Part shown: piece by piece, positions 10,251-64,000 of the stretch
Numbering within the stretch: the stretch's first letter is position 1
Layout: each line of letters begins with the position of its first letter
Program-made: the position numbers and the translations under genes
Notes under the pieces: generated by a model
Database searches by the model: none
Told to the model about the DNA's origin: nothing
What the model saw: only the letters and a program-made list of their open reading frames with translations
Source of the DNA: Dillenia suffruticosa
Taxonomy: Eukaryota > Streptophyta > Magnoliopsida > Dilleniales > Dilleniaceae
Assembly (NCBI GenBank): GCA_033439265.1
Contig: JAVTVX010000016.1
Coordinates: 1,679,001-1,743,000, forward strand
Direction of reading: 5' to 3'
DNA length: 64,000 nt

Positions 10251-10376
10251 GATGGTTTTGTGTGCACCCATGTTAGGTACTAAGTTTGATGGTTGGCATG
10301 CCACTTGTTTTCTCCATGTATTTTGTTGTATGAAAAGATTTTTTTTTCCTTCTTTTCTTTTCTTTTTAAAGGAGGT

Positions 10377-10458
10377 TTGGACTTGCCGGAGTGGTTATCG
10401 GGCATGACTAGAAATCATGTGGGCTTTGCCCGCGTAGGTTCGAATCTTGCCGTTCACG
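10377..10458 (+). pseudogene. tRNA-Ser(AGA) copy, near-full, acceptor damaged
   Basis: 82 nt. The AGA anticodon loop and GGTTCGAATC are present. The acceptor TTGGACT/CGTTCAC has mismatches at the first and last pairs. Confidence 0.8.
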
Positions 10459-10867
10459 ATTTAATTGTTGACTTTGGGATTAACACTCCGTTTGTTGGAT
10501 TAACACTTAGTTTGTTGTTGTAGCTGAAGCCTTTTTTTTGGGTTGAGCTCTATGAAAAGCTCAAATTGATTATAGGATATATCCACCTGGGGTTGTTCTA
10601 CCATCTTGAGTATCAATACTCATGGAAATGGTGGTCATTGGATCATGGGCAGGACCAATCGTGGCCACCCAGAATTGTTCAAAAGTTTTTTATTTGACGA
10701 TCAAGATTTGTTATGGTCATTGGCCCACCGGCTATTAATAGAGATGCTGGAAAATATCATATGATATTAGCTCGCAAACCCAAGTACTTTGTAATTCCAA
10801 GTGAAATTCTGTATGTAGTGCTTCTGCTTTATTGGAGATGTCAATGAGCAAGCATCAAATGCCAGGT

Positions 10868-10949
10868 ATGGACATGCTGGAGTGGTTATCGAGCATGACT
10901 AAAAATCATGTGGGCTCTGCCCATGCATGTTCGAATCTTGTGGTTCACG
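10868..10949 (+). pseudogene. tRNA-Ser copy with anticodon changed to AAA
   Basis: 82 nt. The anticodon loop reads CTAAAAA instead of CTAGAAA. The acceptor and T stem also have mismatches, so it is probably not functional. Confidence 0.8.
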
Positions 10950-11363
10950 ATTTAATTGTCGACCTTGAGATTAACTCTTTTTGTTGTTGTAGTAAAAGCC
11001 TTTTTATTTTTTATTTTTGGTTGAGCTCTATGAAAAACTCAAATTGATTATAGGATATATCCACATGAGGTTGTTCTACCACACTAAGTATCAATACCCA
11101 TGGAAATTGTGGCTGTTGGAAAGTGGGCATGACAAATCCTGGCCCTCCAGAATTATTCAAAAGTTTTTATTTATTTATTTATTTATTTTTTGAATGATTA
11201 AGATTTGTTATAATCATCAACCACCGGCTATTAATAGAGATGTTAGAAAATATCATATGATATTAGCTTGTGAACCCAAAGACTTTGTAATTCAAAGTGA
11301 AATTTTGTATATAGTACTTCTACTTCACCGGAGATGTCAACGAGTAAGCATCAAACACCAGGT

Positions 11364-11451
11364 GTGAGATGTGTCAGAGTAGTTATCATGCATGACTAGA
11401 AATCATGTGGGCTTTGTCCGCACATATTTGAATCCTATCACTTAGTGTGTC
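11364..11451 (+). pseudogene. tRNA-Ser(AGA) copy split by LTR insertion
   Basis: The 5' part is in place with AGA. The 3' acceptor strand (CCGTTCACG) lies at 21771-21779, on the other side of the nested gypsy sequences. Confidence 0.75.
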
Positions 11452-12510
11452 GTCAAATTATCAAAAATAAATTAACATAGTTCACAAAATACTAGTATTG
11501 AGCGAGTAAGGTCGTCTCCTCAGGGATTAGTGGATTTATTTCTTTTAATGAAATAAAAAAAAAATAGGGTTTGAAAATCTACTAAACTAATAAAGAAACA
11601 ATTAACCAAAAATAAATAACTCGAAACTAAAAGAACAAAATTAATGGAAAATCGATTTCTAGTCAAATGAATTATGTCCACCTTGATTTGGTTTAATTGA
11701 TTATCGATCTATTTAAAAATTTCAACATTCGTAAATAAATTAGTTATAGTCATTCAACAAATAACGAACAATCAATCTTTTCTTATTTTATCAATAATTA
11801 AAAGAAGTTCATTAATTATTTCCTTAATTGAAAGACAACCCTAGAAAATCTCTTAGGATTTAATGTTTCGACAACATAAAGATCTAGAAAAACCAAATTC
11901 TAATCAATAAACACACAACAAATCTATTTAAATTAGATTATTTAATTCAATAATATATATTAAGCTATTAACAAAATCTTATATTTATGTCATTCGTCGC
12001 TATATTAAAACAAATAAACAATTACGAATTTATCGTTTTAATTGGTTGTATATTATTTTAGAATTATTAAATATTGACCACTATTCAATAAATACTATAA
12101 AATCATAATCTATGAAGTATAGGAATTAAATAAATACTTATAAGATGTTGATTTAATATACTCAATTAGATCTCACAATCATGAGAAATCAAGATTTCAA
12201 TAACTATTAACTAGAAAATAAATTTAGAATGAAAATATGGTAAAAGGAGAACTCACAAAGGACTAAAACTTGTGCTGGGATTGAATAAAATTGCTGGAAA
12301 ATAATGACACAAAGTGCTGGGAACCACATGAACGTGACTGCTAGGTTGTTGGAAAAGAATGTGCTGGAAACCCCAATAATACAATCCCTAGACGTGGGTG
12401 GCTGCTGCCCTTTCGGGCTGCTCCCTCCTCCTCCTTGAAACATGACAATGCTCCCTTTATATAAGGTCAAATTTCCTATTTCTAAAAGGTAAAGCTTTTT
12501 AACCGATGGG

Positions 12511-13999
12511 TGTCAAATCAATAAAAATAAAAAAATCTACTTCACAAAAGATAAATTTAGAGTAAATAGGGTTGTATTATCAAGAAAGGGGTGGATATGT
12601 TTCTCTTAAAGATGAAAAGAAAATTTGAGAGCGAGAAATTATCTAAAACTAACAAAATAAATAAATCAATAAAATTAATTAAAATAAGACAATTAAATAA
12701 TATCTATTAAAAGAGAAAATATCGATGAGAATAAACTCTAACCCAAGGAATTATTTATATCTTAATGTATTTGATTGATTATTGGTGTAAAAAATACTAA
12801 ATATTATGTAAATAAATTGGTTATAGTTATTAAGTACCACAAAACGACCAATTCTTTGCTTCTTTGGTAATTAAGATAACATCATTAATTAATTTTCTAA
12901 TTAAAAGATAACTCAAGAGACTCTGGTTGGATTTAGTGTTTCGACAACCTTGAAGTCCTAATTAACAAATTCCAATCTAAATTTATTTAAATTAGGTTAT
13001 TTAATCTCATGATATAAGTTAAACCACTTGAGGCCATAATACCATACCAATTATCATTTTATTAAAAACAAACAACCTTCCCAATTTTAATTGGTTGTAG
13101 AGTATTCTAGGGTTATCAAATATAAATATTTATCCAATAAACCCAAAACGATCATAAATATTAGAGAATATAAATTAAACAAATACTTACAAAATATTGA
13201 GCTAATAATTTCAATTAGATCTCACAATTTTCATTCATCAAGATTTCAACAACTCTTTGAGTAAAAAAGAATTTTAGATCGAAAACATGGAAAAAGAACT
13301 CATAAAAGAAAATAAAATTCTGTTAGAAAAGAAAGAATACAATCAATGTGCAAAGAGGAAGACTCCCCCCAAAACATGTGTTCTTAGGGTTTTTAATGCC
13401 CTCTTTAATAGAAGTAAATCACCTATTTTAAAAGAAAGTTTTCTTAAATTTTCCTAACCACTAAAAAATAGCTAAAATAAAATATCCTAATTAATTTGAA
13501 AAAGAGAAATTTCTTAAAAGATAATAAAGAGATTTCAAATAAAGAAAATTCCTAAAAGATAAAAATTTTGAATATTGAATTTCTAAAATTATCCTTAAAT
13601 ATTAGAAATAAATCAACATCTTGAAAATCTTCAATGCTTCCAAATCAAGTCTCAATTTTCCTTGAAATTTCGTGCAAACATGGAGGGATAATGTTGACTT
13701 GGCCTCCAGAAAATCTTGCAATAGTTCCTGTGATCCATGTGCCCATGTGTTAACGAAAGAGCATTTCTGTCCATTTTTTCCGCTTTTTACATAATTGCTC
13801 CAAATTAACTCCTTTTTCTTCATTTTTCTTCTCAAATCTCCTCCATCAATCATAATATATTAAACATCATAAAACAAAACTACCTTGCAAACCAACCTAT
13901 TTTTCTTCATTCAAAGATAAAACACAACAATTAGCATAATATTCATTCAAAAATTAAGCAAAATAAACTATAATTATTATATCAATTCATACCCTATCA
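12511..13999 (-). repeat. 3' LTR of the Athila-like element
   Basis: 1489 bp, bounded by TGTCAAATC and CCCTATCA on the + strand. It is homologous along its length to 18249-21297 once the nested insertion is removed. Confidence 0.85.
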
Positions 14000-15639
14000 A
14001 ATTTCCCCACACCTAGATAATGCTTGTCTTCAAGCATTACTCATTCAAATAAATCCAAAACTACCTTGCAAACTGACCTATTTTTCTTCCAAACTCCCAA
14101 GGCAACATGTGCTATAAAAATCAAATCAGAAGCTTAATCAAAACAACGAGTACTTCATAGTATTTCGCACGAGAACAATCATTAAATATCCTAAGAGCTC
14201 TTTATGAAATCAAAACTGTAAGATTCGATAATTCTTTCTAAGGTTTCACTCAAATTCACTCAAAATGGGGTGTAAAATATATAAATCGCTCAAATCAACA
14301 CAATGGAATTGGCATTACCATAAGCTTACAAATATATTAAATCTCCACCACTTAAAAGTTTGAATTCCATGCACCAATCTATAGGCATTTCATTTGGTTG
14401 TAATGTGGTTAGATTTAAGGGTAAGATAAAAGGGATATTTGAGAGTTAAATCGTACCAACAGAAATATATATAATTAACCACATAATTCTTTCGTATTAA
14501 ACACTTTTGTGCTAACAAACAACACAAAAGATAAAATGCGTCTTCTTTTGTTGTGTTCTTGCACTCGTGTCAACTTTTTTCCATCATCTTCATGAAAGTA
14601 AATGAATGAAATTTCAACAATATACATCACTTTTGTGCTTTTTTTTATTTTTTTCTTTTCCTTTTTTGTTGCTTTTACCTTTTTTTTTTTAGCTTCTGAC
14701 ACATTCTCGTTATTCCCCCTATATTTTTTTTCTTGTTTCAAGCAACCACCTATAATAGAATAGTGAAGAGAATGATCAAACTTATTTCTTCCTTGCATGA
14801 TCACAAACTTCAATTTCATATTCATGAAAGTATGAGAACCAAAATTTCAATTATCATCTTTTCTTTGAGGCAACCAAATAACCAAAATCATGCAATTAAC
14901 TATATATACCTTTGATACAAAGGTTTGAAATGAAGGCAAAAAATAAGGGGGTAGGTGTTGTATAGAGGTGCTTATAAAGAAGAAAACATCTCAGACTCAA
15001 ATTGGTTATCTAAAGGGTTCATAAATCAAGGTGGAGATTTTTTTTTACGAAAGCCAAAAGGGTGTAAAACTTAGGTATCTTTGTCATTTCAATGAATGAA
15101 ATTCTAAAATGTAGTATTGACATACATAACAGAACAAGTTCTAGAATGTTTAATCTAAGTGTGATATTCACTCATCAAAAAACAATTTTTGAGCATATAA
15201 AATGAATTTACTCAGTTTAGGCTTAAAATCTCACTTTTAAGTAGGGTTTGTGTTAAATTCTGCATGTTTATCCTTCAAAGAAAACCACTAAAGAAATGAA
15301 CAATCATTACAACTACAAAAATCATTAATACGAGCCATTTTTCATAAATTTTCAGCTAACCAAATAAGACACATCAACTTAGAAAGTTCGAAATTTTTCA
15401 TTTTTTTTGTGTGTAGGCTTTATTAAAAAGAAAACTAAAATTTAAAGTAAATGAAAATCAAACACAAGTACCAAACACTCCTCTATACCTATTAAGATTC
15501 GAGCAGATCTGGTCATCAAAGTCTTCCGATTTTTATTCACCTATAAAATACCATCAAAATTAAACCTAAATCAAATCAACAAAAAAAAAAAAGAAAAAAT
15601 CATAAAAATATTGGGTTGTCTCCTAATAAGCACCTTTGT
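14000..15639. other. Non-coding 3' interior of the Athila-like element
   Basis: AT-rich sequence between the residual integrase end and the polypurine tract. No RT or RNase H motif is visible on either strand. Confidence 0.6.
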
Positions 15640-18210
15640 TTATTGTCTTTGGCTCTACATGGTCTCCTTGTTTCAACCTGACTTATAGATTGGTTTGGTC
15701 CATCTAAACTTCAACTTGTTTGGCATAAACTTCAATCTTGAATAGAAATGAGGGACTTTTTGGTCTACCATGAATTGCTTTCGGTATAAGAGTTTGTGAT
15801 AGAGAAATTTGTCCAATTGTGCTTCTTTATCTGTCAAAATTTCTTACAACACAAAATCTAATTTATCATACGCAAAATTATCTTTAAAATTATGTTGCAT
15901 GATGGAGTTAGCCATGCTTACATGAAAAACAGACTCAGAATCATTTGGATACTTTATGCGTTTAGAAATATTAAAAGTAGCAACTTCACCATCAAATTCA
16001 AAAGTTAAAGTACCCAAATCCACATCAATTTTCGTTTTAGCTATTTTCATGAAAGGTCTTCCCAACAATATAAGATCAGGGTTAAGAGAGCATGCATCAT
16101 CCATATCAATAACATAGAAAGTAGCATGAAAATTAAGAACATTCACCCTCACGAAAATATCTTCAATCACACTCTCAGGATATAAATTTAACCTATCAGC
16201 CAATTGAATTATCACTCTTGTCTCTTTCAAAGGTTCTAGATTCAAATCCTTATAAACAAACAAAGGCATAACATTTATCGCTGCTCCTAGATCAATCATA
16301 GCATTTTCTAACAATTTATTGCCAATCATGCAAGGTACAGTAAACATACCGAGGTCTTTGCAATTTTGTGGCAATTTCCTTTGGATGACTGCTGAAACAT
16401 TCTTACCAACTAAGATCTTATCATCATCCTTTAGTTTCAACTTCTTAGTTCACAATTCCTTAAGAAACTTGGCATACCTTGGTGCTTGTCTTATTGCTTC
16501 CAAGAGTGGGATATTGATCTCTACCATTCAGAGAATTTCTAAGATCTCTTTCTCTTCCTCCTCTTTCTTTGATTGTGTCAACCTGCCACGAAAAGGTGAT
16601 GGAATCACTATCTTGGATTTTGAATTAAATTCATTACCTACCTTCTTAGTTGAAGCATCCAAAGTTTTTGATTTTTCTTCACTTTTGGTTGTCCTTTTTG
16701 CTTCAACTTTTGATGTAGTACCTCGTACCTCATTTCCACTTCGAAAAGTCATGGAACTAACGTTTTCCCTTAGATTTATTTCAACTTGAGAGGGCAACTT
16801 TCCATGACTAGCTTCAAGTTTACTCATTGCTACCGCCAATTGTGATGCTAGGGTGCCGAGATTTTGAATATTTGCCATTGTTTCTTGTTAAAATCTTTGA
16901 GTTTCCTATTGAAACAATAAATTACTATTAGCTAAACTTTTAACAATATCTTCCAAGAGTATACCTAAATTCAAAGGGGCTGGTCCTCGATTTTGTGGGG
17001 CTGGTTATGGCTAAAGTGGTGGTCTTCAATAAGATTGTTGTGAAAATTCTTGTGATTTAATCTCGTATCTTAGATTTGGATAGTCTCTCCAACCTTGGTT
17101 ATAAGTATTGAAGTAAGAATTGTATTTTCTTTGAGATTGCCCTAAAAATGCACCTACAATATTCAATTGATCGTTAGGCTCCTCATGAAGCGTAGAACAC
17201 ATGTCGGTTGGATGACTCATATTCAAGCAAATTCCACATGCCTTCACTTTTCTACCTATCCTACAACCAATCTTTCCACAATACAAGTTCAAGCATCTAA
17301 CTTGTGATCAAGGGAAGTAATACTTATCTCATTGACCCTTTTCAGAGCATCTTGCCTTCCTTCAAATTTTGTGCATTTGCTGCTATGTTGAAGATCAAAT
17401 TTCGTGCCTCTTTGGGTGTTTTGTTCATCATCGTACCACCACTTGCTGCATTGATCATATTTCTCTCCGTTGACAAAATCCCTTCGTAAAAGTATTGAAT
17501 AAACAGCTGCTTGAAAATTTGGTGCTGGGGACAACTTGCACATTGTTGCTTGAATCTTTCTCAATATTTGTATAAAGTCTCCCCACTAAATTGTCTTATA
17601 CCACAAATTTCTTTTTGAATGTTTGCTACATGAAAAGCTAAATAAAATTTCTCCAAAAATAATATCTTTAAATCATTCCAATTAGCAATTGAATTAAAAG
17701 ACAAATAAAATAACCAACCTTAGCCTTATCTACTAAAGAGAATGGAAAGACTCTTAGCTTCAATTGCTTCTCGGTTACACCTTGTGGTCGCATTGTAGAG
17801 CACGCGATATGAAACTCCTCAAGATGTTTGTTGGGATCTTCTCCTGCAAGTCCATGAAATTTAGGAAGTAAGTGAATAAGACCCGGTTTTATTTCAAATG
17901 GACTCTAAATTTTTGAAAAATTAATGCACAAAGATTGTTGGTTAACATCGGGTATTGCTAACTTCCTTAAAGTCCTTGGTGCATCCATGTTCTCCTCCTT
18001 GATGTGTTGCTCTTCGCTGTCCCTACTAGCAAGTCGTCATCTAGATCAGGTCCAAGCAATGAAGGTGTGGCCTGTTTTGCTTGCTTCATCTCTTTGGTAA
18101 GTTTTTGGGCTGTTTTCTCAATTTTTGGGTCAAACACTAGCTCACAGCTCGAGAAGATCGAGACATATACCCAAAAACAAGGAGAAAGTGTAAAGAAACA
18201 AATCACTTGA
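15640..18210 (-). pseudogene. Athila-like gag-protease polyprotein remnant with integrase C-terminal stub
   Basis: Read on the minus strand, the order is as follows. Near 17985 comes a Gag start with MDAPRTLRKLA. At about 17880-17730 there is LPKFHGLAGEDPNKHLEEFH followed by STMRPQGVTEKQLKLRVFPF, the gypsy Gag core. At about 17260-17200 there is a CCHC knuckle (CGICLNMSHPTDMC). The protease spans 16440-15844, with CMIGNKLLENAMIDLGAAIN (DLGA catalytic motif, usual in this group), then VIIQLADR and LLGRPF. Directly after the protease stop comes LDKFLYHKLLYRK, then FMVDQKVPHFYSRLKFMPNK, which matches the C-terminal domain of integrase; RT, RNase H and the integrase core are gone. Frameshifts and stops split Gag into pieces. 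The copy would need another element's enzymes to move. Confidence 0.8.
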
Positions 18211-18874
18211 CATTATCTTCCATGAAAATGGTGCCAAAATTTGGTAGGTGTCATACCAACAAAAATAAAAATATCCACTTCACAAAAGATGAGTTTAGGG
18301 TGAATAGGGTCATATCCTTAAGAAATGGGTGGATTCGTTTCTCTTAAAGAGAAAAAGAAAATATGGGGGTTGAGAAATTGTCTTGAACTTAACAACATAA
18401 ATAAATCAATAAAATTAACTAAAACAAGATGATTAAACAATACCTATTAAGAGAGAAAATATCAATAAAAAAAACTCTAGCCAAATGAATTATTTTCACT
18501 TTGATGTATTTGATTAATCATTGATACAAAAATTACTCAATATTATATAAATAAATTGGTTATAACCGTTAAATATCACAAAACCACCAATCTCTCTTTA
18601 TTTTTTCGGTAATTAAGATATCATCATCAATTACTTTTTTAATCAAAGGACAACCTCATAAACTCTCATTGTATTTAGTGTTTCAACAGCCTTAAAATTT
18701 AGAGAAACTGAATTCTAATTAACAAATTCCAATTTGGATTTATTTAAATTAGATAATTTAATCTTATGATATACCACTTGTGAGGCCATAAAACCATGCT
18801 AATTACTACTTCATTAAAAAAAAAAAAATTTATCATTTTTAATCGGTTGTAGAGTGTTCTAGGGTTATCAAATA

Positions 18875-20461
18875 TGTCACGCCCCGATCCTCGGATCGAC
18901 CACGCAACAGCCGCCGCGTTGTCTCGGTACACGGGCAGAACCTCCCCTTATACCGGGACTCTGCAAGGCTACAAATCAGTTCAAAACTCATCCAATACAC
19001 CCTCCATCAGAAATGGAAAAAATCATATGACAATACACATATAAAGGACCCATCCGGTCCATCCCTGTACACACAAGCATGCATCGACACGCGAATGGGG
19101 CGGGGGTTCCTGTACATGCATACATGCAAAATTGGCAATCCCAGCCATTCCAGAATTCTCAGCATAATTAAAACATTTAAAACAAAGAAGTCCCAAATCA
19201 TAATCGCAGGATTTTAGTAACACTCGCATGAAAAAACGAGCTAGTGTCAGTAAAATCCAAGTGGTATGAGATATACAGAACTTCACAAATCCAAAAGAAA
19301 GTATCGAAATTCAGAATTTCAATCCAAATGTCCCATATGAGAGTTTAAAAGAAAATGAACAAGTTCCGTACAAACCATGTAAGGATTCCATCAATACTTG
19401 CTCTTATATATGAAACAAGTATTAATTTAATCCATACCAAAAGAATTATACAAGTTTTTCATTCCATGGACTTCAAAATCAACCAAAATGAACTTGCATT
19501 TCTATGTACCTACACGAGTCAGCGGAATAAATCTTCCCTAACTCCAATTTCTGCAGCAGATCTAAACTTCCTCTGAAAAATGTTAAAGGGAGGGGTGAGT
19601 ATTGGGAAATACTCAGTGAGCAGAGTGCAATGGTATAATTGTGTGATAAATGAGGGGTGAATGTGGGAGTGTCAAAGTATATCTCAAATAACATTTCATA
19701 TATATCGAAACATTTTTCAATAAATCAGATAATTCACAAAGTATGCATCCACATCAAGTATTCTTTCAGAAAATCACAAGGGTCCCATCGAAATTACTTC
19801 CATCTTGCGTTTGGCCGAACCAAGACGAAAGCCCGCCAAGAGGTTTTCCATTTTAGTATTTCAAACACTACCCCCTTCCTTGGCGTTGGCTCGGACCTCC
19901 CCGGGGTGCAATCCAGATAGTCCGACGTGGCAGAGAAGAGGTCGCGTATACCTCTCTCGCAATAAAACCCAACCACGCCACCCCGTCGGGTCGCTCCGTG
20001 GAGGGAATGACTATAGCCATTGACTACTAGCACCATGCATTTCTCAAATATGTCATTTCTCAAGTCATGTGCCATAATTTCTAGCAAACAATCATCAATT
20101 TCAGAGCCTACCCCCCTCGGGCGGGTACCTTCACTCAATGTATTGTCTTTGTAGGCCGGCCATTCGACCCTTCGCATCCCTGCAGGGCCTTGGCGTCGAA
20201 CCCGCAACCTACTCCTTTACACCCCCCTCAGGAGGTCGCCTCTCACCAATTGAGCTGCTCTAGCTTTTTTTGTGAGAGCCTACCCCCCTCGGGCGGGTAC
20301 CTTCACTCAATTGGTGAGAGGCGACCTCCTGAGGGGGGTGTAAAGGAGTAGGTTGCGGGTTCGACGCCAAGGCCCTGCAGGGATGCGAAGGGTCGAATGG
20401 CCGGCCTACAAAGACAATACCTTGAGTGAAGGTACCTGCCCGAGGGGGGTAGGCTCTCACA
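18875..20461 (-). mobile_element. Solo LTR, minus orientation, with perfect 5-bp target duplication
   Basis: On the minus strand it runs from TGTGAGAGCC to GGGGCGTGACA (1587 bp) and is flanked by AAATA at 18870-18874 and 20462-20466. No interior or second LTR is present. Its end and its polyadenylation-like CTCACCCCTC segment resemble the larger solo LTR at 23756-27149. Confidence 0.85.
20104..20460. repeat. Inverted repeat (arms about 150 bp) with tRNA-like boxes
   Basis: The left arm (about 20105-20250) and right arm (about 20308-20459) are near-perfect inverted copies around a short centre. Each arm, read outward from the centre, has an A-box-like AGCTCAATTGGTGAGAGG or its truncated form, then a B-box-like GGGTTCGACGCC about 40 nt later. 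Both are consistent with a tRNA-derived SINE inserted twice or duplicated in inverted orientation. Family not recognised. Confidence 0.6.
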
Positions 20462-22179: not shown

Positions 22180-22242
22180 GTGGACGTACCGGAGTGGTTA
22201 TCGGGCATGACTAGAAATCATGTGTGAATCCTGCCATTAACG
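22180..22242 (+). pseudogene. tRNA-Ser(AGA) copy with internal deletion
   Basis: The acceptor, D and anticodon arms are good (GTGGACG, CTAGAAA). About 20 nt covering the variable arm and half the T arm are missing. Confidence 0.75.
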
Positions 22243-22614
22243 ATTTAATTGTCGACCATGGGATTAATACATAGTTTGTTGTTGCAAGAGAAGCCTTCTT
22301 ACTTTTCTTTTTTTGGTTGAGCTCTATGAAAAGCTCAAATTGATTATAGGATATATCTACCGGCAGATGTTCTATCACCCTGAGTATCAATACTTACGGA
22401 ATTGGTGGTCGTTGGATGGAGGGCATGACAAATCCTCGCCGTCAAGAATTGTTCAAAAGTTTTTTATTTGGGATGATCAAGATTTGTTTTGATCACTAGC
22501 CCACTGGCTATTAATAGAGATGTTAAAATATCATATGATATTAGCTTGCAAACCCAAAGACTTTGTAATTCCAAGTGAAATTATGTATATAGTGCTTCTG
22601 CTTCATTGGAGATG

Positions 22615-22675
22615 TCGGGCATGACAAGAAACCATGTGGGCTCTGCCTGTGCAGGTTCGAATCTTGTCGATCACG
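22615..22675 (+). pseudogene. tRNA-Ser copy lacking the 5' half
   Basis: It begins at CGGGCATGAC; the acceptor 5' strand and D arm are deleted. The B box GGTTCGAATC is kept. Confidence 0.7.
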
Positions 22676-52050: not shown

Positions 52051-52122
52051 ATGGATGTGCCGGAGTGGTTATCGGGCATGACTAGAAATCATGACGCGTT
52101 GGTTTGAATCCTGCCGTTCACG
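52051..52122 (+). pseudogene. tRNA-Ser A-type copy lacking the variable arm
   Basis: About 72 nt. The 5' half including AGA is good; the variable arm is deleted and the B box has become GGTTTGAATCC. Confidence 0.7.
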
Positions 52123-52378
52123 ATTTAATTATTGTCCTTGGGTTTAACACTTAGTTTGTTGTTATAGTAGAAGTTTTTTTAATTTTTTTGGATGAGCTCT
52201 ATGAAAAGCTGGAATTGAGTATAGGATATATCCACTTGGGGTTGTTCTACCATCCTAAGTATCAATTATCCCTGGGAATGGTGGTCCTTGGATAGTGGGC
52301 ATGACAAATCCTGGCCCATCTATAATTGTTCAGAAGTTTTTTATTTTGGATGATCTTGATTTTTTCTGATCACAGGGT

Positions 52379-53506: not shown

Positions 53507-54844
53507 ATGAGTAAACACCAAATACCAGGTTTGGATGTGCCGGAGTGATTATTAGGCATCACTAGAAATCGTGTGGACTGTATCCACGCAAGTTTGAATC
53601 CTTTCATTCATGATTTAATTGTCAACCTCGGGATTAACACTCTATTTGTTGTTTTAATAGAAGCCTTTTTATTTTATTTTGTTTATTTATTTTTTTGGTT
53701 GAGCTCTATGAAAAGATCAAATTGATTATAGGATATATCCACCGAGGGTTGTTCTACCATCATGAGTATCGATATCCAGAAAAATGGTGGTTGTTGGATG
53801 GTGGGCTTGACAAATCCTCGCCATCTAGAATTGTTCAAAAAGTTTTTTATTTTGGATGATAAAGATTTGTTATGATCACAAGCCCACTGGTCGCGCAGGT
53901 TCGAATCCTACTGCTCATGATTTAATTGTCGACTTTGCGATTAACACTCAGTTTGTTGCTATAGTAGAAGTCTTTTTATTTTTTTTTTGGTTGAACTCTA
54001 TGAAAAGCTCAAATTGATTATAGGATATATCCACTCGGGGTTGTTCTACCATCCTTAGTATCAATGTCCATGGAAATGGTGTTCTTTGGATAGTGGGCAT
54101 GACAAATCCTGGCCATCTAGAATTGTTCAAAAGTTTTTTATTTTGGATGATCACGATTTGTTATGATCACGGACCCAATGGCTATTAAGAGAGATATTAA
54201 AAAATATCATATGATATTTGCCCACGAAACAACTTTGTAATTCCAAGTGAAATTCTACATGTGGTGCTTCTACTTGATTGGAGCTGTCAATGAGAAATCA
54301 TCAAATACTAGGTTTGGACGTACGGAGTGGTTATCAGGCATGACTAGAAATCATGTGGTCTCTGTCCGTGCAAGTTTGAATCCTGCCATTCACGATTTAA
54401 TTGTCAACCTTGGGATTAACACCCAGTTTGTTGTTGTAATAGAAGCCTTTTTTATTTTATTTATTCATTTTTTTTTTGTTGAGCTCTATGAAAAGCTTAA
54501 ATTGATTATAGGATATATCCACCAAGGGTTCTACCATCCTGAGTCTCAGTATCCATAAAAATGGTGGTTGTTCTACCATCCTGAGTATCAATACCCATGG
54601 AAATGGTGGTCATAGGATAGTGGGCTTGACAAATCTTGACCATCTAGAATTGTTCAATAGTTTTTTATTTTGGATGATCAAAATTTGTTATGATCACAAG
54701 CCCACCAGCTATTAATAGATATGATGGAAAATGCCATATGATATTAGCTCGCCAACCCAAAGACTTTGTAAGTCTAAGTGAAATTATGTATGTAGTGCTT
54801 CTGCTTCATTGGAGCTGTCATTGAGTAAGCATTGGATACCGGGT

Positions 54845-54922
54845 GTGGACGTGCTGGAGTGATTATTAGCCATGACTAAAAATCAAGTGGGCCCCGCATA
54901 GGTTTGAATCCTGCTATTCATT
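54845..54922 (+). pseudogene. tRNA-Ser A-type copy, degraded
   Basis: About 78 nt. GTGGACG acceptor 5' strand kept; anticodon loop CTAAAAA (AAA); variable arm shortened; 3' acceptor lost. Confidence 0.65.
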
Positions 54923-55061
54923 GTTTAATTGTTGACCTAGGAATTAACACTCAATTTGTTGTTGTAGTAGAAGTCTTTTTATTTTTTTTTTGATTGAGCT
55001 CTATGAAAAGCTCAAATTGATTATAGGATATATCCACCTGTTGTTGTTCTACCATCCTGAG

Positions 55062-55580
55062 CAATGTTATTAAAACCGAACCGAACCGCCGATTCAACCG
55101 GTTCAACCGGTTCAATCGGTTTAACCGGTTCAACCCTTCTTTTAACAATTTTGCGATTTGGTTGAATAAAAATACCGTTTTACAATTGAATCGGACTGAA
55201 CCAGCGGTTCAACCATGGTTCAACCATGAACCAAGGTTGAACCGCCGGTTTTAAAAAATCGCGGTCTAGGGTTAAAACCTAAAAAAATATTTTTTTAAAG
55301 ATTTTTTTAATTTTTTTTAATTTCTATGAGATGTGAGACTATCAATTTTTGATATTATGATTTTAATTTATATTTTATATGACTTTATAATTTAGTTATT
55401 TAGTTCTTAATTATCAATATGAGTTTTAAAAATAATTATTGATTATATATATATATATATATATATATTTAATTATTATTAAAAAATCAGCGGTTCGACC
55501 ATATTGATCCACGGTCCAATCGGTTCAACTATATTTTTGAATTTTACGGGTCAATATACAGTACGGTTCTGATAACATTG
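55062..55580. mobile_element. hAT-type MITE with 8-bp target duplication
   Basis: 519 bp. The ends CAATGTTATTAAAACCG and CGGTTCTGATAACATTG are imperfect inverted repeats (15 of 17). ATCCTGAG is duplicated exactly at 55054-55061 and 55581-55588, within the satellite phrase ACCATCCTGAGTAT. The left part carries repeated CCGGTTCAA motifs. No coding sequence. Confidence 0.93.
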
Positions 55581-55847
55581 ATCCTGAGTATTAATATCCT
55601 TGGAAATTGCGATCGTTGGATGGTGGGAATGAGAAATCCTTGCCATCCAGAATTGTTCAAAAGTTTTTTATTTTGGATCATCAAGATTTATTATGATCAC
55701 TGGCCTACCGGCTATTAATAGAGATGTTAGAAAATATCATATGATTTTAGCTCACAAACCCAAAAATTTTGTAATTCCAAGTGAAATTCTGTATGTAGTG
55801 CTTCTGCTGCATTGAAGATGTCAATGAGTAAGCATCAAATACCAGGT

Positions 55848-55906
55848 GTGGGCGTGCTCGAGTGGTTATCGGGCATTACTAGAAATCATGTGGGCTCTAC
55901 CCGCAC
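55848..55906 (+). pseudogene. tRNA-Ser A-type copy lacking the T arm
   Basis: The 5' part including AGA is present. The T arm and 3' acceptor are deleted between CCGCAC and ATTTAATTG. Confidence 0.65.
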
Positions 55907-56290
55907 ATTTAATTGTAAACCTTAGGATTAACACTCAATTTGTTGTTGCAGTAGAAGCCTTTTTTTTTTAGCTCTATGAAAAGCTCAAATTGATTATAGG
56001 ATATATCCACGTGGGATTGTTCTACCATCCTTCATATCAATACCCATGGAAGTGGTGGTCATTGGACAGTGGGCATGACAAATTCTGGCCACCCAAAATT
56101 GTTCAAAAGTTCTTAATTTTGGGTGATCAAGATTTGTTATGATTACTGGCCCACTGGCTATTAATAGAGATGTTGAAAATATCATATGATATTAGCTCAC
56201 GAACCCAAAGACTTTGTAATTCCAAGTCAAATTCTATATCTACTGCTTCTACTTCAGTGGAGCTATCAATGTAAGCATCAAATACCAGAC

Positions 56291-56353
56291 GTGGACGTGC
56301 CGGAGTGATTATCGGGCATGACTAGAAATCATGTGGGCTTCCTGTAGTTCACA
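56291..56353 (+). pseudogene. tRNA-Ser A-type copy with variable/T-arm deletion
   Basis: GTGGACG, the D arm and the AGA arm are good. About 20 nt are missing, and the 3' end reads AGTTCACA. Confidence 0.65.
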
Positions 56354-56768
56354 ATTTAATTGCCGACCTTGGGATTAATACTCAGTTTGTTGTTGTAACA
56401 GAAGCCTTTTTCTTTTTTATTTATTCATTTATTTATTTTTGGTTGAGATCTATGAAAAACTCAAATTGATTATAGAATATAACCACCTGGGGTTGTTCTA
56501 CCATCCGAGTATCAATACCCATGGAAATGGTGGTCGTTGGATGGTGGGCTTGACAAATCCTCGCCTTCCAAAATTGTTCAAAAGTTTTTGATTTTGGATG
56601 ATCAAGATCTGTTATGATCACCGGCCCACGGGCCATTAATAGAGATGTTGGAAAATATCATATGATATTTGCTCGCGAACCCAAAAACTTTGTAATTCCA
56701 AGTGAAATTTTATATGTAGCGCTTCTGCTTCATTGGAGATGCCAATGAGTATGCATCAAATACTAGGT

Positions 56769-56850
56769 GTGGATGTGTCGGAGTGGTTATCGGGCATGAC
56801 TTGAAATCATGTGGGCTTTGCCTGTGTAGGTTCGAATCCTGTCATTCACG
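56769..56850 (+). tRNA. tRNA-Ser-like, anticodon TGA
   Basis: 82 nt. The anticodon loop is CTTGAAA, so the anticodon is TGA, still a serine anticodon. Acceptor GTGGATG/CATTCAC pairs fully. The D stem (TCG/CGG), variable arm and T stem (GTAGG/CCTGT) pair with G:U wobbles. B box GGTTCGAATCC is perfect. It may be a functional gene with altered anticodon, or a copy that has just begun to decay. Confidence 0.6.
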
Positions 56851-57265
56851 AGTTAATTGTCGACCTTGGGATTACAACTTTGTTTGTTGTTGTACCGGAA
56901 GCCTTTTATTTTTTATGTTTTATTTTTTTATTTTTGGTTGAGCTCTATGAAGGGCTCAGATTGATTTTAGGATATATCCACCTGGGATTGTTCTACCATC
57001 CTGAATATCAATACCCGTGGAAATGGTGGTCATTAGATGGTGGGCATAACAAATCCTTCCCATCTAGAATTGTTAAAAAGCTTTTTTATTTTGGATGATC
57101 AAGATTTGTTATGATCATTGGCCCACCGGCTATTAATAGAGATGTTGGAAAATATCATATGATACTAACTCGCCAACCCAAAGACTTTGTAATTCCAAGT
57201 GAAATTCTATGTTTTGTGCTTCTGCTTGATTGGAGATGTCAATGAGTAAGCATTAAATTCCAAGT

Positions 57266-57347
57266 GTAGACATGCCAGAGTGGTTATCGGGTATGACTAG
57301 AAATCATGTGGGCTCTGCCCATGCGAGTTTGAATGCTGTCGTTCACG
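57266..57347 (+). pseudogene. tRNA-Ser A-type copy with triplicated 3' tail
   Basis: 82 nt with AGA. The 3' segment CCTGTCGTTCA recurs twice more in the following 35 bp. T stem and B box (GAGTTTGAATGC) are damaged. Confidence 0.65.
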
Positions 57348-58415
57348 GAACCTGTCGTTCATGAAACCTGTCGTTCAATTTAGGTGTCGACTTTGGGATT
57401 AACACTCAGTTTATTGTTGTAATAGAATCCTTTTTATTTTTTTTGGTTGAGCTCAATGAAAAACTCAAATTGATTATAGGATATATTCACCTGAGGTTGT
57501 TCTACCATATCAACACCCGTGGAAATGGTGGTCGTTGGATAGTCGGCATGACAAATCCTTGCCATCCAAAATTGTTCAAAATTTTTTTATTTTGGATGAT
57601 CAAGGTTTGTTATGATCATCGGCCCACCTGCTATTAGTAGAGATATTGAAAAATTTCATGTGATATTAACTCGCTAACCCAAATACTTTGTAATTGCAAG
57701 TGAAATTCTGTATGTTGTGCTAAGGATGGCAATTGGGCGGGTACAACGGGTTTCTGTCAAAGTCTACCCACCCCTCCACCTTAAAACTCTATACTCACCC
57801 CCGACCCTCCACCCGTGGTGGGTAAGATATTTTATACGCTACCCTCTGCCTGCCCCTACCTGCCCCTATCTGCGGGTTTATCCACCAGACAGTAAGTCAA
57901 TTAAGGTATTGAACACAACTAAATCATTAAAGCCTCCATCAAATCGCAAAATCCATTATAAAATACAATTAAATCATAAAATTTTCAATTACTAAGAATT
58001 AACAAGAGCAAGAAACACAACTAAATCATAAAAGCTTCAATGATACCCCTAATAATTAGGAACAAGGCTTCTGTAATTCAAATTATAAATTATGCAAAAG
58101 TTTTGAACAAGGCCTATGAAATACTAATTAGATTAAGGTCTAGACTTTGTAATCGATTCATATCAAAATGAATGGGAGCAAACAAAAACTTAGAGTTTGA
58201 ACAAAATTTTACATAAAAATAAAAATGAAAATGAAAAAAGACAACGGAGGAGATGAACCTTTTGACAGAGAGAGAGAGACTTGTTTGCACTTCAAGTTGA
58301 CTCTTTTACGGTTCCAAGTTGAGTCGATTTATGTGTGTGTATATACATATGGAGGGTTGGGTAAGGTATACGGTGGGTACAAGATTTATACCTGCACCTT
58401 ATCCGACCTTTAACG

Positions 58416-58902
58416 TGTTAAAATAAATTCAAATAATATTGATTGATTTAGTCAATCATTATGATTGATTTAGTCAATCATTATGATTGACCTAATCAAT
58501 TATCAACCATTCAACCATAATAATTGATTTAATCAATTATTATGATTGAACTAATCATTACAATTAATTTGGCCAATGATATATATTTGGTTAGCTTAAT
58601 CAATTATTCAGATTGATTTACTCAATCATTATATATTTAGTTGATTTATTTAATGATTGATTTATTCAATCACTATAAATTTAGAATATTGACTTTATTT
58701 TCCCCTTTACCAATTTTATTGTGATTCTTTTCCTTTTTCTTTAATGGTTAGTTTCTTGTATAAATAGAACTCATTTCCACACTTTATAAAAAAAGCAAGC
58801 AGAGACAATCTTCTCTCTTGTACTTAGTTTTCTCTCTTCTCTTGTAATGTTCTTTAGTAATCTATATTATTTTCTTCATTCTTCTCTTATAGTTTTTCAA
58901 CA
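58416..58902 (+). repeat. 5' LTR of copia B
   Basis: 487 bp. Its left third is built from diverged GATTGATTTARTCAATCATTAT subrepeats, each nearly palindromic. A TATAAATAGAACTC promoter-like motif (TATA box) lies near 58759, then CT-rich leader sequence. Confidence 0.93.
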
Positions 58903-61900
58903 TGGTATCAGAGCAAATTTCGAATCCTTCCTCTTTGAGGTCAGGAGATCATTCTTTTCAAATGAATTCTTTTTCACAATCATTCTCTTCCATTCTTTTT
59001 ACCTCTTCAAATTATTTTCAATGGGCTGCTCATATTAAGAGATCTTTAAACTCAAGAAATCTCTTGAGTCATATTATAAAGAACCCTCTTGATGAGTCAG
59101 ATCCAATATTTGAAGAATAGAAAATGAGGGATGACCAAGTGTTCATCCTACTCACAAGTTCTATGGATCAAATTCATAGAACTATGGTCATTTGCTCTCC
59201 AAACTCTAAAGCTCTTTGGGATCAAATGTACAATCTTTATGGGCAAGAGTCGAATTTAGGAAGAGTGTTCGAGGTAAAGAGGTGAATTGCCAATATCAAG
59301 AAAGATGAGAAGACGCTCTCTCAACTATTTGGCGAATATGAAGATCTTTGGAATGAATTCAAAATTTTGAGCCCGTTCACAACCGACCTCAAAATTTTAC
59401 AAAAAAGAGAGGATGAAAACAAGTCCTTTGGACTCCTCATTTCTCTTGGAGAGCAATTCGCACATGTTCGTCAAGAAATCCTTCGAATGAAGGATTTTCC
59501 TTCCTACCAAGAAGTGAGATCCATGATCCAACGAGCAGAAGCAAGTATGACCCTTGAGAATGTTTGCCAATCCAAAGTAGAAGGGTATGGTTTCAATTCA
59601 ATTACAGAAGGGCACGTGGCCAACAAGGTGCAACACATGGCCAAAAAGGTATGTGGTTACTGCAAAAAGCCTAATCATTCACAAGAAAAATGTTGGTTTC
59701 TCCATCCTCACCTGAAACCTGAGCACTTTAAAAGAAAGGGACAAGTCTCCTCAAACATGGCCCAAAATGCAGCACTTGAGTCAACAATTGAAAATATCGT
59801 TTCAAAAATGCTGCTCAAGTAAGTAACGATTAATCCAGGTATTTGCTTATACTCAACTTTAAATTTTCAAGATTGGTTAGTAAATTCTGATTGCGATCAT
59901 CATATGGTTAGGGACAAAAGGAAATTTAAAAAACTAAAATTTCTTCCACATCATAAGACAGTCAAGGTCGCTAATGGAAATAATTTCAATGTAAGAGAAT
60001 TCGGAGAAGTTAATATTTTTGGAAAAAACTCTAATGCTTTATATGTTCCCGAATTTTCATCTAATCTTATGTCTATTAGTCAAATTACTAAAGATCAACA
60101 TTGTAAAGTTATATTTGATCCTGATACTGTTGTTTTTCAGGATCTCAAAACAAACCAAGTGATTGGTAGGGGATTCAGAAGAAACAACCTATATTTTTTG
60201 AATCAAGATAATCATGTACACACGGCATATCAAGAAGAAAATTACATTTTGTGGCATGCTAGATTAGGACATCCTAATAAACAAGTTTTGAAATACCTAT
60301 TTCCAATAAAAAATTGTGAAGATAGATATTGTGAAGCTTGTATTTTTGGAAAAGAAACTCGAACGCATTATCCGATTTCGGAAACAATTTATAAAAATGC
60401 TTTTAATCTTGTACATTCTGATATTTGGACATCTCCTGTAGTATCTAGACGAGATTTTAAATATTTCATATCTTTTATTGATCACAAGACTAGATACACA
60501 TGGGTATATATGCTTACTTCAAAAGCACAAACATTCGAAGCATTTAAAAATTTTTACAATTATATCACTAAACAATATAATGCAAATATAAAAATATTTA
60601 GGACCGACAATGGGGGGGAATATATGAATCATGCATTCACAACTTTTCTAGAAGAAAATGGAACAATCCACCAAACCTCATGTCCATATACCCCCCAACA
60701 AAATGGAATAGCCGAAAGGAAAAATCGACATTTACTTGAGATAGCAAGAACAATCATGTTCTATGCTAACATGCCTAAAATTTTTTGGAGCGATGCAATT
60801 AGTACTGTCGCTCACCTAATTAATCGCTTACCCACTAGGATACTCTAGGAAAAATCTCCCTTAGAAGTCCTCACTAAGACTAAACCAAATATTACTCACT
60901 TAAAAGTGTTTGGATGCAAATGTTATGTCATATACCAGAACAATTTAGAAATAAATTGGATAAAAAGGGGAGACGGTGTGTTTTCATAGGATATGGGTCA
61001 TTTCAAAAGGGTTATATATGTTATGATCCTACGACTAACAAAATATACACATCAAAAGATGTGATTTTTGTAGAAAATGAGTTCTATTTTGCAGATATAA
61101 GCAAAACAAGAATACCACAAAAAGAAGATCTACAAGTTTTCTTGTTAACTCCAAAAGAAATTAGCAATCCCTCTTGCCAATCTAATGAAGAGGAAAATCC
61201 AGAACAAGAGCAAGAGAGAGGATCACCAGAAAATTCTGAGCAAAAGGAAGATAGAAGCTCCTTCAAAACTGAAGAAAGTAGGGAGCAAGGGGGAGACAAA
61301 ACCCAAGAAGACTTACTTCCTTCAGAAGTAAATGAAGAGTCCAATAATTCGCCATCATCTCCACCACCACTCAGAAGATCAACAAGACTAAGATTTCCTC
61401 TATCAAGATGGGAACACTACATCTCTAAGGTCACATCTTATCCTATTGCTGACTATTATACTACCACTAATGTTTCCTCAAGTCACCAAGCATTCTTGAG
61501 TGGCATTGATCAAATACAGGAGCCTAGAAATTTCAATGAGGCCAATGATCACCCAGAATGGAGGAAAGCAATGAAAGAAGAGCTAGATGCTCTCACAAAG
61601 AACAAAACTTGGGAAATAACGACTCTCCCAAGAGAAAAGAAAGCAGTCGGATGCAAATGGGTTTATAAGATTAATTATAAAAGTGACGGTTCAATTGACC
61701 GTTATAAGGCTAGACTTGTAGTTAAAGGGTTTACCCAGACTTACGGAGTGGATTATACGGAGACCTTTGCACCTGTAGCAAAAATGAACACTATAAGGGT
61801 TCTCTTGTCTCTTGCCACCAATAGGAGTTGGCCAATGTATCAGATGGACATAAAAAATGCCTTCTTACAAGGGGAGTTAGAAGAGGAGGTCTACATGCAT

Positions 61901-63090
61901 CTACCTCAAGGGCTTAATCAAAGTCATGAAGGACGAGTGTGCAGACTGAAGAAAGCTATCTACGGTCTCAAACAATCTCCTCGGGCCTGGTATGCAAAAC
62001 TAAGCTCTGTGCTTCTCAGTTACAACTTTAAAAAATGTAATAGTGATTCCTCCTTATTTACTAAATTTGATAATGAAAGAATCACTATTGTGCTCATATA
62101 CGTTATGATATCATTGTTACCGGAAGTGATATCAGTCAAATTGATCAAGTTAGAAATTTTCTTAAATCTAATTTTGAAGTTAAAGATTTAGGGCTACTAA
62201 AGTACTTTTTAGGAATAGAACTTACCTACTCTCATAAGGGGCTTGTCCTATCCCAAAGAAAGTATACTCTTGACCTTTTGCAGGAGACAGGTAAATTGGG
62301 AGCAAAACCAGCGATTAGCCCTATCTCAACCTCTGATGAAGAAAAAGATGTCGATCAACCTTTCACAGATATACAAAGGTACCAGAGACTTGTTGGGAAG
62401 CTCATTTACCTAACTATCACCAGACCCGACATTGCATATGCTGTGAGTCAAATCAGTCGGTACATGCATGCTCCTAAAGTATGTCATTGGAAGGCAGTTG
62501 AAAGGATTCTTAGGTATCTTAAAGGGTCTCCCAAGAGAGGAATCTGCATGAAGAATAATCAAAGTTCAGAAATAGTGGGCTATTGTGATGCGGATTGGGC
62601 CGGAGATTCAATGGATAGAAGATCCACCACAGGTTATTGCATATTTGTTGGTGGGAATATCGTATCTTGGAAAAGTAAGAAACAATCTGTAGTTTCAAGA
62701 TCAAGTGCAGAATCTGAGTACCGAGCCATGGTAGCAACAACCAGCGAGATCATTTGGCTAAAAGCTCTAGTTGAAGAATTGGGATTTCTAGTCACTTCCC
62801 CTATCAAACTCTTTTGCGACAATCAATCTGCTATTCATATTGCGTCTAATCCTGTCTTTCATGAGAGAACAAAACATATTGAAGTCGATTGTCATTTCGT
62901 TCGTCAAAAGGTTGAAGATAAGACCATAGTCACTCCTCACGTGAAGAGCAATGAACAGCTTGCTGATATTTTTACCAAAGGAACTACGGTAAGTCACATG
63001 CAAAATATTCTCAGCAAGTTAGGCTCCATAGATATCTATTCGCCAAACTTGAGGGGGAGTATTAAAATAAATTCAAATAATATTGATTGA
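58902..63090 (+). pseudogene. Copia B Gag-Pol polyprotein, inactivated
   Basis: The frame starts MVSEQISNPSSLRSGD, overlapping the LTR end. Gag carries the knuckle CGYCKKPNHSQEKC (about 59662). The protease site reads LVNSDCDHHM where copia proteases have a DSG-type motif, so both the catalytic Asp and the Gly are changed. Integrase follows (WHARLGHPN, CEACIFGK, HSDIW, RTDNGGEY, IAERKNR), then RT (KAVGCKWVYKINYKSDGS, MDIKNAFLQG) and RNase H (YCDADWAGD, AESEYRAM, FCDNQSAI). Internal stops are at 59118, 59283, 59820 and 60846. One-base deletions break the frame near 60928 (in GCKCYV) and near 62105, exactly at the YVDD catalytic motif of RT. It cannot mobilise itself. Confidence 0.92.
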
Positions 63091-63545
63091 TTTAGTCAAT
63101 CATTATGATTGATTTAATCAATCATTATGATTGACCTAATCAATTATCAACCATTCAACCATAATAATTGATTTAATCAATTATTTGATTGAACTAATCA
63201 TTACAATTAATTTGGTCAATGATATATATTTGGTTGGCTTAATCAATTATTCAGATTGATTTACTCAATCATTATATATTTAGTTGATTTATTTAATGAT
63301 TGATTTATTCAATCACTATAAATTTAGAATATTGACTTTATTTTCCCATTTACCAATTTTATTATGATTCTTTTCCTTTTTCTTTAATGGTTAGTTTTTT
63401 GTATAAATAGGACTCATTTCCACATTTTATAAAAAAAACAAGCAGAGACAATCTTCTCTCTTGTACTTAGTTTTCTCTCTTCTCTTGTAATGTTCTTTAG
63501 TAATCTATATTATTTTCTTCATTCTTCTCTTATAGTTTTTCAACA
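63060..63545 (+). repeat. 3' LTR of copia B
   Basis: 486 bp, starting TATTAAAATAAATTC (TG changed to TA at the first dinucleotide) and ending TTTTTCAACA. It differs from the 5' LTR at roughly a dozen positions by eye. Confidence 0.93.
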
Positions 63546-63657
63546 TAACGGGTTTGAAATTTTCATATCCTCACCCACCCTCATCCGCCCCTTACCCACC
63601 TCCACTGGGTAGGGTAGGGCGGGTATCCACTAGGTTGGGTACAAATTGTCATCCCTA

Positions 63658-64000
63658 TATAGTGCTTCTGCTTCAATGGAGATGTGAATGAATAAGCATC
63701 AAATACCAAGTGGGGGAACGTCGGGGTGGTTATTGGGCATCACTAGAAATCATGTAAGCTTTGCTTGTGTAGATTCGAATCCTACAGTTCACGTTGTTGT
63801 AGTAGAAGTTTTTTTATTTTTTTGGTTGAGCTCTATGAAAAGCTCAAATTGATTATAGGATCTATTCATCTGAGGTTGTTCTACCATCCAGAGTATCAAT
63901 ACCCATGGAAATGCTGGTTGTTGGATAGTAGACATGACAAATCCTGGCCATCCAGAGTTATTCAAAAGTTTTTTAATTTGGATGATCAAGATTTGTTATA
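63658..64000 (+). repeat. tRNA-Ser satellite array, continuing to the window edge
   Basis: One more A-type unit with a degraded tRNA head at 63713-63793 (AGA loop kept, acceptor and B box lost: AGATTCGAATCC). The body follows to 64000, so the array probably extends beyond the window. Confidence 0.85.
63713..63793 (+). pseudogene. tRNA-Ser A-type copy, degraded
   Basis: About 81 nt. CTAGAAA is intact. The 5' acceptor (GGGGAACG) and variable arm are mutated. The sequence after it lacks the usual ATTTAATTG linker. Confidence 0.6.

Follow-up and report, generated by a model that had tools for sequence, protein, structure and literature searches.

A small satellite in Dillenia suffruticosa that probably derives from an in-situ tRNA-Ser(AGA) gene cluster

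Tandem clusters of tRNA genes (tDNAs) have been described in several plant genomes. The SYY (tRNA-Ser/tRNA-Tyr/tRNA-Tyr) cluster of Arabidopsis and other Brassicaceae is a cluster of this kind formed by tandem duplication (PMC12308677, PMC11700998); it is described as a core of major genes with variable flanking regions richer in pseudogenes, methylated in the order CG > CHG > CHH (PMC12308677). A survey of 69 angiosperms, restricted to genes of high confidence and to a density of three tDNAs per kb, reported Pro, Tyr-Ser and Ile clusters (PMC11700998). We have analyzed a window of 64,000 bp from the nuclear genome of Dillenia suffruticosa (C16:1679001-1743000; contigs are cited as C plus number), which contains a row of units each consisting of a tRNA-Ser-derived head and a body unrelated to tRNA; in its core, two unit types, A and B, alternate. 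This array is probably (we put it at roughly 85%) an old plant tDNA cluster that arose in situ, turned into a small satellite, was mostly silenced and decayed, and retains a tRNA-making capacity of at most about six genes.

We regard the SYY cluster as the nearest known parallel. Both are tandem clusters in which the major genes prefer one position of the unit and a core is set off from flanks richer in pseudogenes (PMC12308677); furthermore, the methylation order reported for SYY resembles the mutation bias of the present array. In contrast to SYY, the Dillenia array contains Ser only, has one head per ~480-bp unit and an A/B dimer, is far more decayed, harbors internal transposons and belongs to the Dilleniales. 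The tRNA-Cys cluster on Arabidopsis chromosome 5 is likewise a pseudogene-headed row of 0.4-kb units with one tRNA gene each and putative transposable elements, but it comprises four copies as compared to at least 51 here, and its abstract mentions no higher-order repeat (PMC10701932). The tRNA-Ile run of maize and the tRNA-Pro runs of eudicots and monocots are also single-isotype tandem clusters; with about two heads per kb, mostly pseudogenes, the present array would not qualify under the criteria stated for that survey (PMC11700998). Outside plants, squamate satellites derived from short interspersed elements (SINEs) are tandem repeats of a short repeat family below typical satellite abundance, but their source is dispersed SINEs and not a tRNA gene with its native flank (PMC10702118). 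Entamoeba also carries tandem tRNA genes; there almost all tRNA genes are arrayed (PMC2652664), whereas in Dillenia dispersed genes coexist with an array that decays. In the open-licence PMC literature we found nothing on tRNA arrays in Dilleniaceae and, among the matches listed, no tRNA-derived plant satellite with higher-order repeats.

The heads extend from position 10376 to the end of the window. A search with nhmmer using one head as query gave 54 rows, all on the + strand; 51 clean heads were kept and three partial ones (39359, ~53837 and 63711) were dropped. Head-to-head spacing is mostly 461-515 bp in uninterrupted stretches, as the first-pass annotation had noted with its more than 50 heads of one orientation at 460-510 bp. 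ARAGORN called 22 tRNAs within the array (20 Ser-AGA, one Ser-TGA and one called Phe), and 15 tRNAs scored above the Rfam cut-off. The unit consensus of 481 bp, an 84-bp head followed by a body of ~397 bp, was built from 44 units; the other seven heads have no next head within 380-560 bp. The units abut head to tail, their 3' ends reading (A)ATACCAGG or similar immediately before the next head, and no poly-A tail or target duplication separates them, so that the annotated body of about 400 bp without either feature was confirmed. The annotation had taken the whole of 10370..64000 for satellite DNA. The array is real, but about half of this span is inserted DNA: unit-profile segments, seven in number, total 25,167 bp, and six insertions inside the span total 28,457 bp. 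The unit profile places the right end of the array at C16:1743144, which is 144 bp outside the window; the 30 kb that follow contain no further units. The locus thus has same-strand tandem units, each with a tRNA gene or its remnant, as plant tDNA clusters do, and it is a homogenized head-to-tail array with higher-order repeats, as satellites are; high abundance or several loci, as expected of a satellite, were not found for this unit, which occupies one locus of ~25 kb.

The higher-order structure is dimeric. Between 27.4 and 51.7 kb, 17 units of type A alternate with 18 of type B and form a dimer of ~984 bp, the sole break being the B-B neighbors 42385/42830. Mean identity at unit offsets 1, 2, 3 and 4 was 0.802, 0.878, 0.809 and 0.881 (27, 27, 26 and 25 pairs, 37.9-51.7 kb), in line with the satellite-like order proposed at first pass; the most recent copies reach 0.996. 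In a tree of the units, the B units form one clade (100/99), the A units together with u22593 another (100/99), and seven of the eight edge units fall outside both. When only the bodies were used (~200 columns), A with u22593 held at 100/93 and 18 of 19 B units stayed together (96/95). The order of events may be read as monomers first, followed by a dimer of single origin spreading in the center, with exchange among units. Such exchange seems to have reached into a tRNA head. At head 47253, the first five of nine informative sites are of the canonical class, sites 59 and 74 of the other class, site 68 is canonical and site 82 neither; its 5' part and the upstream body resemble canonical units, its 3' part and the downstream body resemble 46269. 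The two flanking bodies fall in different classes (92.6 vs 83.6%; 93.5 vs 83.0%), which points to an exchange within the head.

The origin of the array was traced by searching the genome (596 Mb in 37 contigs). The unit gave 173 matches, not all of them among those listed, the best 39 of 139 first-look candidates being scored. Among the matches listed, all that reach past query position 96 lie in this array, except C34:23380060-23380258. The surrounding locus on C34, of which 5.5 kb was compared, aligns in blocks with window positions 7666-10337, the region of a calcium-dependent protein kinase (CDPK) gene directly left of the array (84.4% over 973 bp, 93.5% over 31 bp and 83.4% over 651 bp); about 1.1 kb of the window's CDPK region is absent at C34 between the aligned blocks. 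The next block corresponds to body positions 268-473 (81.6% over 206 bp) and is followed by the end of the last unit with the DNA right of the array (L037 15-339, 78.5% over 326 bp) and by further blocks up to L037:2345. These 5.5 kb contain one unit match, no array and no tRNA gene. A search with the CDPK end and flank returned C16 itself, C34 (84%) and five short matches.

Both ends of the array abut native flank. On the left, the array opens immediately 3' of the CDPK gene, ~3 bp before the first tRNA head; the first unit is preceded by AAAGGAGG and internal units typically by ATACCAGG, which places the start of the duplicated stretch about 3 bp 5' of the tRNA. Because the C34 paralogue is collinear and unamplified and shares both the kinase gene and the right flank, the body is identified, on sequence grounds, as the native 3' flank of the CDPK gene and the array as one that grew in place by tandem duplication, the mode of origin of plant tDNA clusters. 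This substantiates the suggestion, made at first pass, of a satellite derived from a tRNA gene cluster: in-place duplication, a dimeric higher-order repeat, a homogenized core and decayed edges are all found. In shared body bases, C34 is on average 82.3% identical to eight edge units, and these are 84.7% identical among themselves; in the tree, C34 clusters with the rightmost unit, the support being moderate (88/76) and short of the level that the program marks with a star. The array may thus have begun not long after the C16 and C34 loci parted. For the first 35 nt of the array's head subtype (A5), exact matches were found only on C5 (one) and in this array (four, one of them the mosaic head 47253); allowing one mismatch adds a single A5 site, at C29:8395176, all remaining matches outside C16 at that level being of a G5 subtype.

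Most heads have decayed. A head was considered intact if it kept, gap-free and against the perfect head, all 23 tested pairs of five stems. Six of the 51 heads do so (39924, 44321, 45292, 48241, 50213 and 56768), and the remaining 45 are broken; in a plant tDNA cluster most genes would be expected to be able to make tRNA, which does not hold here. Heads 48241-48324 and 50213-50296 are identical to the perfect head at 45292, and these three match a dispersed gene on C5 at 82/82 bases. For head 56768, selection was considered and is not claimed: keeping all pairs had a chance of 0.08 under random C/G transitions, before correction for 51 heads. Core B heads start with TTTGG instead of TGTGG, so that the first acceptor pair is lost, and all 18 of them have TTTG in place of TTCG in the B box; to judge by these changes, the B heads are tRNA pseudogenes. 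The description of the unit as a tRNA-Ser(AGA) gene needs correcting in this respect. A run of at least four T starts 51-60 nt past 41 of the 51 heads and within 118 nt of all of them; it is a plausible stop for RNA polymerase III (Pol III), barring read-through of the whole unit. No tRNA-Tyr gene was called by ARAGORN in the window, although genes with introns may have escaped it, and a permissive Rfam search gave no tRNA in the bodies of 44321-46300.

The mutation pattern offers a clue to how the heads decayed. Transitions relative to the type consensus occurred at CG, CHG, CHH and A+T sites with frequencies of 0.108, 0.040, 0.035 and 0.024 in A units and 0.178, 0.127, 0.039 and 0.023 in B units, and the order of site classes was the same when each variant was counted once. 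This spectrum would fit long-standing CG methylation, plus CHG methylation in B units. Variants in the heads were then compared with those in the bodies. By type, head and body diversity is 0.102 and 0.115 for A and 0.139 and 0.112 for B. After context correction, A heads carry 40 distinct variants as compared to 56.6 expected from bodies, no contiguous body window being as low and 0.56% of random column sets being so; B heads carry 52 as compared to 54.9 expected. This suggests mild constraint on the A heads. A local yardstick for constraint is provided by two tRNA-Glu(CTC) genes left of the array, identical at 73/73 bases within a duplication that is 83% identical.

These data also bear on the proposal that the locus is a functional reservoir of tRNA-Ser(AGA) genes whose size is maintained by selection and which, as in the Arabidopsis SYY cluster, is activated in particular cells. 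The six heads with all tested stem pairs, three of them perfect, would fit such a role, as would the shortage of variants in A heads but not in B heads and a CAA motif at -5 of head 39924; moreover, the SYY cluster is reported to be reactivated in root-tip cells despite methylation (PMC12308677). However, 45 of 51 heads have broken stem pairs, the CG of the B box is lost in core B heads, and no TATA-like element lies within 50 bp 5' of any of the six intact heads. CAA occurs at -26 of all six; it recurs at -12 and -5 of 39924 and at -12 of 56768, whereas the other four have it at -26 only. On C2 and C29 there are tRNA-Ser arrays in a better state of preservation. We therefore consider a reservoir kept large by selection unlikely; the idea, raised at first pass, is weakened by the small number of structurally intact heads, although the A heads do show mild constraint. 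It overlaps with the decayed cluster that we favor, as some of the genes may be active.

A structural chromatin element, in which TFIIIC bound to the arrayed A and B boxes would form a boundary or insulator next to NF-YA and the CDPK gene, would be a far less likely explanation. An intact B box GGTTCGAATCC is still present in 12 of the 51 heads, and a tandem repeat of human tRNA genes has been proposed as a boundary element (PMC4041453). However, most B boxes are mutated, uniform TFIIIC binding, as in the Pol III/TFIIIC-bound domain suggested at first pass, is disfavored because of the TTTG shared by the core B heads, and the C34 paralogue has no array.

Least probable of all is a tRNA-Ser-derived SINE family clustered here by chance: every unit does join a tRNA head to an unrelated body, and on its left the array begins no more than ~3 bp from a tRNA 5' end, but the body occurs outside the array, among the matches listed, only as the C34 fragment in collinear native DNA, Pol III would be expected to stop at the T runs long before the unit end, and tail and target duplications are absent between units. 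Dispersed copies with target duplications (among the matches listed), a terminator-free Pol III unit and a 3' tail, the marks of such SINEs and in part the refuting observation named at first pass, were thus all lacking, and a SINE origin was rejected in view of the genome search and the C34 locus. A protein-level search for dispersed copies gave 85 matches in several plants, 79 covering 18-44% and six covering 51-80% of the query, from which no conclusion on the body was drawn; a pattern scan of viral contigs gave no match.

For the decayed in-situ cluster that we favor, the following history is proposed. A single tRNA-Ser(AGA) gene just downstream of the CDPK gene would have been the founder. 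A stretch of ~480 bp, which reaches ~3 bp beyond the tRNA on its 5' side and ~395 bp on its 3' side, was then duplicated in place, as documented by the paralogue and both native flanks, and the row may have lengthened by unequal exchange. One event produced the A/B dimer, its B head losing tRNA function; the dimer spread and homogenized the center, leaving old monomers at the edges, as the identity pattern and the trees document. The array was probably DNA-methylated and largely silent, so that heads would have decayed most at CG and, in B units, at CHG sites. Transposons settled in the array, as their insertions within it attest. A few A heads would have stayed perfect and may still make tRNA-Ser(AGA), owing to weak purifying selection or to the recent spread of good copies.

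Several observations weigh against this history. Copy number and order of the units are known from the assembled contig alone, and rare dispersed body fragments could escape a search that scored only the best candidates. At C34 the tRNA is missing together with a large part of the 5' half of the body, so that the founding tRNA may either predate the C16/C34 split, with loss at C34, or have been acquired at C16. The B unit u42385 is placed beside the A clade in the body-only tree. As to methylation, CHG sites of A units show no excess of transitions and more transversions (0.074) than transitions; CG observed/expected is 0.60 in the core as compared to 0.44 in the left flank and 0.42 and 0.80 in Copia elements, so that the core is not CG-depleted beside its surroundings, which counts against methylation. 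As to constraint, the diversity of heads over all units is not below that of bodies (0.171 vs 0.163); constraint becomes visible only after the A/B split and context correction, and since the units are related, the variant counts give no clean probability.

The question whether there is one locus or many, posed at first pass, has a twofold answer: this unit has a single locus, yet the genome contains several tRNA arrays, at least two further ones for tRNA-Ser among them. A 35-nt tRNA-Ser core had 325 genome matches at ≤3 mismatches, and the reversed control had none. In the 30 kb examined at C2:14958001-14988000, a tRNA-Ser(AGA) array with a 1.03-kb unit has 22 heads, 17 of them intact (15 exact); over 19 units, mean identity is 97.3% for heads and 95.5% for bodies, and the unit flank is related to a dispersed single gene at C4:15718512 (70.9% over 450 bp). 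The C2 array runs past the 30 kb examined, C2:14988815 matching as well. At C29:8318001-8388000 (70 kb), 321 tRNA-Ser-like heads were found, 39 of them intact (22 AGA and 17 CGA). They form a higher-order repeat of 2.48 kb with 12 monomers that are 57-87% alike, and 13 copies of it, when aligned, have a mean identity of 99.4%. Twenty heads are exact Ser(AGA), and 14 of the 17 intact Ser(CGA) heads differ from these solely at an anticodon base; in some repeat copies either the AGA or the CGA head is damaged. Other isotypes are arrayed as well, with 6 kb examined in each case: tandem tRNA-Ile(TAT) genes with an 819-bp unit at C1:4326001-4332000, a tRNA-Ile cluster at C13:16693001-16699000 and a tRNA-Cys cluster, some members of which are called as other isotypes, at C11:12579001-12585000.

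When the present unit was compared by BLAST with the C2, C29 and C1 units or with single genes, no similarity was found past the head, except for short matches at chance level. A 50-bp stretch after the head (unit ~99-148) is 76% identical (E 1e-5) to C11, ~28-80 nt after several tRNA-Cys-like heads. The best reversed control reached 0.08; this similarity is weak, and we offer no explanation for it.

On balance, we lean towards the view that tRNA genes repeatedly seed satellites in this genome, with independent Ser rows on C16, C2 and C29, Ile rows on C1 and C13 and a Cys row on C11 representing successive stages. The series would lead from unamplified C34 (without tRNA) and C4 (one gene) via the young, mostly intact C2 array and the C29 higher-order repeat to the mostly dead, transposon-ridden C16 array. 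On C29, most repeat copies hold one perfect Ser(AGA) and one Ser(CGA) gene, the latter usually differing only at the anticodon, and the higher-order repeat would act as a vehicle through which a few Pol III genes survive among dead ones and a new anticodon can arise.

Plant tDNA clusters were known before; new is a Ser-only, dimeric, satellite-like array together with its uncopied paralogue and several other arrays in the same genome. This paralogue gives direct access to the duplicated segment, to its breakpoints and to its approximate relative age. The parallel arrays, at other stages and with mostly unrelated flanks, suggest that the tRNA gene itself and not its neighborhood is prone to tandem growth. 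Both bear on how plant tRNA gene clusters arise and why they persist while mostly silent. Surveys with a density cut-off and high-confidence filters, as described in PMC11700998, would probably miss such arrays.

Table 1. Positions of the array segments, insertions and other features in the window.
Feature	Position	Strand	Basis
Pieces of the CDPK gene	4979..10247	+	Pfam for the kinase and EF-hand exons, inspection by eye for the rest
Left array edge with two complete units plus a third interrupted within its tRNA head	10376..11442	+	unit hidden Markov model (HMM), junction sequence
10.3-kb insertion in a tRNA head, CCTATCA at both junctions	11443..21769	.	unit HMM, junctions
Array segment with heads 22179, 22593, 23072 and 23559	21770..23764	+	unit HMM
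3.4-kb insertion of long terminal repeat (LTR) type, TG...CA ends, 5-bp CACTT duplication	23765..27147	.	read by eye
Array segment, B and A units alternating	27148..30502	+	unit HMM, identity pattern
Copia retrotransposon insertion	30503..37645	+	unit HMM, Pfam/self-comparison
Homogenized core, A/B dimer units of ~984 bp, copies up to 99.6% identical	37646..52376	+	unit HMM
tRNA-Ser(AGA), C6T plus G76A, pair kept	39924..40007	+	head comparison
tRNA-Ser(AGA), single change G15C, all tested pairs kept	44321..44404	+	head comparison
Body hairpin (example), up to 40 bp of stem	44556..44677	+	folding, unit alignment
Example B unit; pseudogene head, acceptor and D-stem pairs broken, B box GGTTTGAATCC	44798..45291	+	head comparison
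Perfect tRNA-Ser(AGA) gene, tRNA 45293-45374	45292..45375	+	ARAGORN, Rfam 56.3 bits
Mosaic tRNA head	47253..47336	+	nine informative sites, flanking-body identity
1.2-kb insertion or rearrangement, no element assigned	52377..53530	.	unit HMM
Degraded segment, right edge	53531..55063	+	unit HMM
0.5-kb insertion resembling a miniature inverted-repeat transposable element, 8-bp duplication ATCCTGAG	55064..55580	.	unit HMM, junctions
Right-edge A-like monomers without A/B alternation	55581..57721	+	unit HMM, tree
tRNA-Ser with TGA anticodon, 9 changes, all tested pairs kept	56768..56851	+	ARAGORN, head comparison
5.9-kb insertion with Copia element 58415-63546, LTRs 97.8% identical, target-site duplication TAACG	57722..63654	.	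unit HMM, LTR comparison
Rightmost unit, runs on to C16:1743144; groups with the single-copy C34 sequence	63655..64000	+	unit HMM, tree

The body contains a hairpin that can be aligned in 44 units, the copy at 50448 missing part of the 3' arm. An RNA function was considered and rejected: the 40-pair stem is kept in 90.5% of cells (42 distinct rows) as compared to 90.6% in shuffles, covariation was not above the control, RNAalifold found no such consensus hairpin in the body, and Rfam gave only sub-threshold microRNA matches. Because of the missing covariation, the hairpin is perhaps a fossil foldback element. It is more stable on the + strand than on the opposite strand.

Among the insertions, the 10.3-kb one contains a retropepsin-like open reading frame (15844-16449, - strand) recognized by eye only, with no Pfam match. 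The end repeats of the Copia insertion at 30511-37645 (427 bp, 95.8%) are inverted relative to each other, unlike ordinary LTRs.

To the left of the array lie NF-YA exons, the tandem tRNA-Glu(CTC) pair and the pieces of the CDPK gene. The two-exon NF-YA translation at the left end of the window matches two proteins of Dillenia turbinata along its whole length (89% and 82% identity); by E-value, the next named match is from Morus notabilis (56% over 98%). The tRNA-Glu genes lie one per copy in a 1-kb duplication (3997-5018 / 6635-7666, 83% identical). The CDPK gene may be a candidate pseudogene. At 4979-5601 and ~7806 it showed, by eye, an apparent frame break near the start and the absence of a kinase-domain stretch between exons. 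To the right, 2.6 kb from the end of the array, an H/ACA small nucleolar RNA, snoR109, was found at L037:2723-2819 (C16:1745723-1745819) with 61.7 bits.

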